Origin: Nitrospirales bacterium
GTDB taxonomy: Bacteria > Nitrospirota > Nitrospiria > Nitrospirales > UBA8639
Length of the DNA: 43,236 nt
Direction: 5' to 3'
NCBI GenBank assembly: GCA_020027535.1
Contig: JAHRAK010000017.1
Coordinates: 1 to 43,236, forward strand
The first letter of the stretch is position 1. Each line of letters starts with the position of its first letter. A program made the position numbers and the translations under genes. The notes beneath the pieces were generated by a model. It searched no databases and was not told where the DNA came from. It saw nothing but the letters and a program-made list of their open reading frames with translations. Shown here piece by piece: positions 12,423-13,366 of the stretch.

Positions 12423-12456
12423 AAAAAAGCCTTCACCCCGATGAGGTGAAGGCTTT
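12423..12456 (-). terminator. Intrinsic terminator in the leuA leader (attenuator)
   Basis: A 12-base-pair stem (12426-12437 with 12445-12456, arms AAAGCCTTCACC and GGTGAAGGCTTT on the minus strand) encloses a seven-base loop and is followed on the minus strand by a run of U beginning inside the stem. It stands 125 bases before leuA and 19 bases after the stop codon of the leader ORF. As a plain terminator it would end the pssA message; its position just behind a Leu-rich ORF argues for a regulated attenuator. Confidence 0.85.
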
Positions 12457-12472
12457 CTACCTGTTTCGGGGT
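12435..12472 (-). promoter_or_regulatory. Antiterminator pairing for the leuA attenuator
   Basis: On the minus strand ACCCCGA (12466-12472), just after the leader stop codon, is the exact complement of TCGGGGT (12435-12441), which covers the loop and the first bases of the 3' arm of the terminator. Formation of this seven-pair helix would prevent the terminator. A competing upstream hairpin, ATCAG with CTGAT around TGACCCC, could sequester the first segment when the ribosome is not stalled. Pairing was found by eye. Confidence 0.55.
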
Positions 12473-12474
12473 CA

Positions 12475-12570
12475 TCAGGGGGTCACTGATAGTTTCAGAA
12501 GTCCTGACAGTGTCAGCACCGCGTCACTTAAGCGAAGGGTGCCCCTTCCTTTTCCTTGCCATTGATCCAT
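12475..12570 (-). CDS. leuL: Leucine-rich leader peptide of the leuA attenuator
   Basis: 31 codons from an ATG at 12570 that lies four bases after the pssA stop, with AAAGGA eight bases before it. Residues 11-29 read TLRLSDAVLTLSGLLKLSV: seven of the 31 codons are Leu (CTT, TTA, CTG, CTG, CTT, CTG, CTA), five of them within nine residues, including the usually rare TTA and CTA. The stop is followed at once by the antiterminator segment and the terminator. This is the arrangement of classical amino-acid attenuators such as enteric leuL, though the peptide itself shows no similarity to them. A shortage of charged Leu-tRNA would stall the ribosome here and favour readthrough into leuA. Confidence 0.7.
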   Translation of the reverse strand: MDQWQGKGRGTLRLSDAVLTLSGLLKLSVTP

Positions 12571-12574
12571 GCGA

Positions 12575-13366
12575 TCAGTCCTTTGAATCCGACGACACGG
12601 ACGTCCGAAGCTGCGTGTCTCGCGTTGTTGCGACGGTGACGGCACTCCAACCTTTTTCCACCAACCCGGAAGCCACGTATCCCAAACAGAGCACAAACAA
12701 CATCAGTTGAGGATAGGCCATCACGGACACCAGAATCAAGACGGCCCAGACCAAATACATAAAATGATTGTGGCCTGCAAACTTCAACTGTTTCACACCG
12801 CGGTACTTCACCGTACTCACCATGAGAAACCCCATCAGCAAACTCATGGCAATCACCACCGAGGGCAGAACGCTTTCCGGCAGATGGCCGATGTGCGTAT
12901 TGAAAATATAAAACGTCGAGATGAACCCGGCTGCCGCCGGAATGGGCAACCCCGTAAAAAATCGACTGTCCCCACTGCCCGCCATGACGTTAAAACGGGC
13001 CAGGCGCAACGCGCCGCAGGCCACGTATGCGAACATGATCGCCGCCCCCAGCATCCCCGGGGACTCCAGCACCCACGCATAAATCAAAAAACCCGGGGCC
13101 AGCCCGAATGAAATGAGGTCCGACAAGGAATCGTATTCCACGCCAAACTCGCTCGTACTGTCGGTCAACCGGGCGGACGTGCCGTCCAGGACGTCGAACA
13201 CCATCGCAATCAGAATCGCAATCGCCGCCGTTTCCAATCGACCATGGAATACCAACACCACCGCGGCCAATCCACTGAACAGATTACCGGTGGTGAGGAT
13301 ATTGGGGATCAGCTGGACTCCCCGGCGGCGTTGCCCTTCTTTATTCTTAAAAATCCGGCCTTTCAC
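12575..13366 (-). CDS. pssA: CDP-diacylglycerol-serine O-phosphatidyltransferase
   Basis: 263 residues, integral membrane enzyme that makes phosphatidylserine. The CDP-alcohol phosphotransferase signature is complete: DG-TS-AR, eight residues, G, three, D, three, D (DGTSARLTDSTSEFGVEYDS and LSD). RRGVQLIPNILTTGNLFSG precedes it, and about seven hydrophobic helices follow, including ALRLARFNVM and FTGLPIPAAAGFI, typical of the Bacillus-type PssA rather than the E. coli soluble form. Start and end overlap psd by four bases upstream and abut the leu leader downstream. Confidence 0.95.
   Translation of the reverse strand: MKGRIFKNKEGQRRRGVQLIPNILTTGNLFSGLAAVVLVFHGRLETAAIAILIAMVFDVLDGTSARLTDSTSEFGVEYDSLSDLISFGLAPGFLIYAWVLESPGMLGAAIMFAYVACGALRLARFNVMAGSGDSRFFTGLPIPAAAGFISTFYIFNTHIGHLPESVLPSVVIAMSLLMGFLMVSTVKYRGVKQLKFAGHNHFMYLVWAVLILVSVMAYPQLMLFVLCLGYVASGLVEKGWSAVTVATTRDTQLRTSVSSDSKD

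Follow-up and report, generated by a model that had tools for sequence, protein, structure and literature searches.

Exchanges between tRNA-sensing T-boxes and leader peptides have been described at hisS and other genes (PMC2965389). Exchange at the same gene is known, and the question it raises is how one kind of sensor turns into the other. In the ilv-leu operon of S. aureus a leucine-rich attenuator occupies the place taken by a tRNA-Leu T-box in B. subtilis, and its authors saw loose T-box-like features without stem I (PMC5794164). In Geobacter and Pelobacter, too, leuA is preceded by a T-box (PMC2494555). With incomplete journal coverage, our literature search found no report of T-boxes in Nitrospira and no case of a terminator retained across a T-box/leader exchange.

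The DNA analysed here, hereafter the window, is a contig of 43,236 nucleotides from a Nitrospirales bacterium. At a probability of roughly 0.78, its pssA-leuA gap carries a transcription attenuator that responds to leucine through the translating ribosome and that was built from what was left of a leucine T-box. The first half of this statement, a leucine attenuator by itself, is very likely on the sequence comparisons described below. Genomes are grouped as f1 (the window's family), g1 (its genus), g9 (a neighbouring genus) and f3 (the sister family, comprising Nitrospira and relatives); the named genomes from the window's genus and family are Nitrospirales MAGs.

All genes of the locus lie on the minus strand in the order ilvB, ilvN, ilvC, psd, pssA, leader, leuA, leuB, an NHL-repeat gene, asd, a small ORF, a SpoIID-domain gene and queA, the last being named from its ORF sequence alone. 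Directly upstream of the leader is pssA (13366-12575; CDP-alcohol phosphatidyltransferase, PF01066), which ends with the TGA at 12577-12575. The first gene under control would be leuA (12300-10753; PF00682, PF08502), followed after 69 nt by leuB (10683-9607; PF00180), probably in the same transcript. The leuA-leuB gap contains repetitive GGGTGAGGGTGA-type sequence at 10750-10695, and the NHL-repeat protein gene (9583-8369) lies between leuB and asd, inside an amino-acid operon.

An earlier note, made from the letters of the window alone, had proposed a leucine-responsive attenuator between pssA and leuA, beginning with a 31-codon ORF behind pssA that has its own AAAGGA site and seven leucine codons. 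All of these parts are present on the minus strand. The ribosome binding site (12584-12579) lies 8 nt 5′ of the ATG and overlaps the end of pssA, and the ORF runs from the ATG at 12570 to the TGA at 12477-12475, giving the translation MDQWQGKGRGTLRLSDAVLTLSGLLKLSVTP. Leucine accounts for 7 of the 31 residues (12, 14, 19, 21, 24, 25 and 27). The five leucines that the note had placed within nine residues do fall at residues 19-27 (CTG, CTG, CTT, CTG and CTA), although the TTA codon it had counted with them is residue 14 and lies outside the cluster. The locus thus has the short, translatable ORF rich in codons for the regulating amino acid, with its ribosome binding site, that is characteristic of leader-peptide attenuators.

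The 12-pair stem and U run of the earlier note are found downstream of this ORF and upstream of leuA, at 12456-12423, as AAAGCCTTCACCTC-ATC-GGGGTGAAGGCTTTTTT, with 15-16 pairs when flanking A-U pairs are included, a U run at 12428-12423 and a folding energy of -23.3 kcal/mol. An intrinsic terminator at this place between leader and structural gene is conserved in g1, g5, g7, g8 and g9. A terminator scan of the window gave no call at this hairpin, probably because the stem consumes the U run, and this is not evidence either way. An Rfam search of the window gave no match, including to the leu operon leader family.

The complementarity claimed for ACCCCGA (12472-12466) and TCGGGGT (12441-12435), the latter in the terminator loop and 3′ arm, is exact. 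An inner helix absent from that proposal, AGGT (12462-12459) with ACCT (12447-12444) of the terminator 5′ arm, lengthens the same hairpin, and its 5′ strand is equivalent in position to that of the AGGG/CCCU antiterminator helix of f3 T-boxes. In the folding, the antiterminator is a single hairpin (-16.9 kcal/mol) with 11 pairs and a further three that are weak. From the window sequence alone, a complement of seven bases has a chance probability of ∼0.01 and at least seven leucines in 30 residues one of ∼0.03. These values are only modestly unlikely by chance, and the case depends on comparison with relatives.

The pssA-leuA gap was read in 13 g1 and three g9 genomes. Their leader ORFs begin at the same place behind the same ribosome binding site, or a close variant at the same distance, and in 15 of the 16 genomes (12 of g1 and three of g9) the ORF is open and has 4-10 leucines. 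A gapless alignment of twelve leaders shows that leucine columns 12, 13, 14, 19, 21, 24 and 25 are nearly invariant while their codons vary (CTT/CTC, TTA/CTA and CTG/TTG/CTC/CTT). Pairwise dN/dS is 0.55 for the whole ORF and 0.17 for the leucine columns, compared with 0.93 and 1.28 for the other two frames, which mostly contain stops. In two genomes (G005 and G006) a mobile-looking insert (CAGGTCAGGACAGGCACAGGGGCCTGTCCCTACA or similar) is found in the leader ORF, which is still open, and the stop is shifted 8 nt upstream.

Antiterminator pairs are similarly maintained. With the two strands registered by hand, a choice that favours the structure and that was made because MAFFT misplaced the outer helix in some g9 and g7 rows, 180 of 187 pairs are standard across 17 genomes. 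The changes include an A-U to U-A double change in g9_G027 and G-U changes in g9_G026. Because it doubles as a terminator arm, the 3′ strand hardly varies, which limits covariation. In g8 the leader differs, with its leucines grouped near the end (CLFLLGKV and variants), the distance from stop to terminator arm is 34-35 nt versus 21-23 nt elsewhere, and the antiterminator is formed by CGATCGGG/CCCGATCG. This alternative pairing implies that the mechanism has drifted.

The expectation that relatives would keep a leucine-rich ORF and an antiterminator complement along with the terminator holds for 15 g1 and g9 genomes and for g8. It fails in g1_G007 (two leucines), g5_G017 (two or three) and g7_G019 (four, unclustered), where the terminator is kept with a leucine-poor leader. 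The leaders of these three f1 genomes may be decaying or otherwise regulated. A further set, comprising genus g10 (L039, L041, L044, L046-L047, L049-L050, L056-L060 and L062) together with L051 and L054, has pssA and leuA only 32-64 nt apart, and both T-box and attenuator are absent from these short gaps.

Folding of the RNA with and without a ribosome on the leader, which had been suggested as a check, gave the expected behaviour. A ribosome masked at the leader stop covers ACCCCGA, and the early antiterminator is then unable to form. With the mask at leucine codons 14-27, folding favours the antiterminator (-16.9) over every other structure as GGGGU emerges. In silico, antiterminator and terminator are mutually exclusive: a ribosome at the stop prevents the antiterminator, whereas one stalled at the control codons leaves it free to form. 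Once fully emerged, the terminator (-23.3) is the most stable structure in every ribosome state, ahead of the antiterminator, and we infer that the choice between the two hairpins must be kinetic.

These data suggest the following scheme. The leader ORF would be transcribed by polymerase that continues from ilvBNC-psd-pssA or starts at a promoter in pssA. With ample Leu-tRNA the ribosome would reach the stop codon and cover ACCCCGA, and the terminator would form. With scarce Leu-tRNA the ribosome would stall at leucine codons 12-27 and leave ACCCCGAAACAGGT free to pair with the emerging ACCTCATCGGGGT, which would block the terminator and permit transcription of leuA-leuB and probably also of genes beyond. 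Gene packing makes it plausible that readthrough would raise asd and queA too. Placed within a long operon, such an element suggests how leuA could be uncoupled from ilvBNC.

In a simpler view the hairpin is a plain terminator that ends the ilvBNC-psd-pssA transcript, the ORF is fortuitous and leuA is transcribed from a promoter of its own further downstream. This would be compatible with the spacing in most g1 genomes, where 104-134 nt separate terminator and leuA and a conserved TATGAT (12396-12391 in the window) could serve as a -10 element. However, a promoter search of this spacer found no match, and the leader ORF is under coding constraint. Moreover, the U run ends just 18-21 nt 5′ of leuA in g5, g7, four of five g8 genomes, one g9 genome and one g1 genome. 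A separate promoter does not fit into so short a distance, which implies that expression of leuA requires terminator readthrough. We consider the plain terminator very improbable. As a separate observation, the TATGAT past the terminator (GGGGTATGATTGAGAA in relatives) may give attenuation-independent leuA expression in that g1 subclade.

The sister family has a different element at the same place. RF00230 matches the pssA-leuA gap in all five f3 loci tested (84-99 bits), and occurs across f3 and three distant Nitrospirota families (f9, f10 and f13), nearly always between pssA and leuA. Leucine T-boxes of f3 are present in the Nitrospira-type genomes L065-L082 and L091-L114. The specifier is CTC in 60 of 65 T-boxes and CTG in two of 65, both of which are leucine codons. 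The earlier note had considered a position inside a long operon unusual for such an attenuator; the position is confirmed, and the f3 T-box at the same place accounts for it.

Given this shared position and the similar terminator, the f1 element could be imagined as a degenerate T-box in which direct sensing of tRNA-Leu persists. This is extremely improbable, since RF00230 matched none of 49 f1 genomes, nor any of nine f1 loci even at E up to 1. Stem I with its specifier loop is missing from the f1 sequences, and the AGGGUGGNACC T-box sequence with its tRNA-binding bulge (GGTACC) is present in f3 and absent in f1. Stem I remnants sought by eye within the leader ORF gave nothing convincing, and a conserved translated ORF is found instead.

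What f1 does appear to share with the f3 T-boxes is the terminator. The sequence GCCTTCGTCCC is identical, at the same position, in g5, g7, g8 and f3 T-boxes, and AGCCTTCGTCCC is found in g5, g7 and four g8 elements as it is in f3 T-boxes. An HMM of the 3′ domain of f3 T-boxes gives f1 elements scores of 9.5-20.4 bits, and in the entire window it matches 12456-12423 only. A score of 9.5 bits was reached by none of 4600 shuffled gaps and by 0.3% of random hairpins matched for arm composition, loop and U run; 0.09% of these hairpins reached 12 bits and 0.02% reached 18 bits. In a pattern search of seven genomes, the stem core GCCTTC..GAAGGCTTTT followed by a U run occurs once, at leuA, in six, the window's genome included, and one genome has one extra copy, indicating that these genomes do not use it as a general terminator. 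A T-box-type terminator at this place bears on descent rather than on membership in the T-box class.

These observations also bear on whether the leader-peptide attenuator was assembled independently, with the T-box lost or never present and the likeness of the terminators due to convergence. Attenuators are thought capable of arising repeatedly (PMC2965389), and the HMM score in the window's own genus is low (12.0 bits, within a g1 and g9 range of 9.5-13.4). T-box and attenuator are both absent from f2, a family of this order with pssA-leuA gaps of 1 and 13 nt. Within g1 and g9 alone the resemblance to the T-box is weak, and the case for descent depends on the intermediate genera g5, g7 and g8 and on synteny. 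Convergence must nevertheless account for an exact GCCTTCGTCCC in those three genera and in f3 T-boxes at the same position, for scores that matched random hairpins seldom attain, for a stem that is nearly unique in each genome and for the nesting of f1 within T-box-bearing f3. We regard it as unlikely.

This nesting comes from a tree of PssA and LeuA in which f1 is monophyletic (support 100), f1 and f3 group together (97) and f1 lies among T-box-bearing f3 genera (90%), with the caveat that a two-gene tree can mislead. Parsimony places a T-box in the ancestor of f1 and f3, one change to a leader at the base of f1, and later losses in g3, g4, g6 and g10. Most probably, the T-box was converted in place: its sensing part was lost and a leucine-rich ORF substituted, while the terminator was retained together with a shortened antiterminator. 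If the element is an attenuator, its in-place origin from a T-box is quite probable on the sequence evidence. The fuller proposal, in which a T-box sensing tRNA became, at its original site, an attenuator that senses the ribosome and serves the same gene and amino acid, with the expression platform outliving its sensor, is likely, though somewhat less so. Under this conversion reading, the ancestral T-box state and the derived leader state would both be extant in living Nitrospirales. Because a single order holds both states, and losses as well, at one syntenic position and with an apparently common terminator, the steps of change should be traceable and testable. The findings extend leucine attenuators to Nitrospirales and add T-boxes for Nitrospira.

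Among described systems, the enteric leu operon (leuL) is similar in having a leucine-rich leader ORF, antiterminator and terminator in that order, with a predicted response to Leu-tRNA charging. The earlier note had invoked this layout, and its order of elements holds. The exact geometry differs: in the window the antiterminator draws not only on part of the terminator 5′ arm but also on its loop and 3′ arm, and no clear 1:2 protector hairpin is established. The window element also differs from leuL in lacking an Rfam match and in sitting inside a long operon. The S. aureus ilv-leu attenuator belongs to Firmicutes and precedes the first gene, ilvD, and in the accessible part of its description descent from a T-box is not demonstrated (PMC5794164). 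The RF00230 T-box of Nitrospira shares the gene leuA, the pssA-leuA gap and a similar terminator, but detects the tRNA itself by means of stem I and the bulge, making a leader ORF unnecessary. The exchanges at hisS and elsewhere resemble our case in that sensing systems were swapped at the same gene, but the accessible part of that report describes them between distant groups or paralogs, with no shared terminator carried over (PMC2965389). Exchange between T-boxes and leader peptides is thus already known, and the retained platform is the new part.
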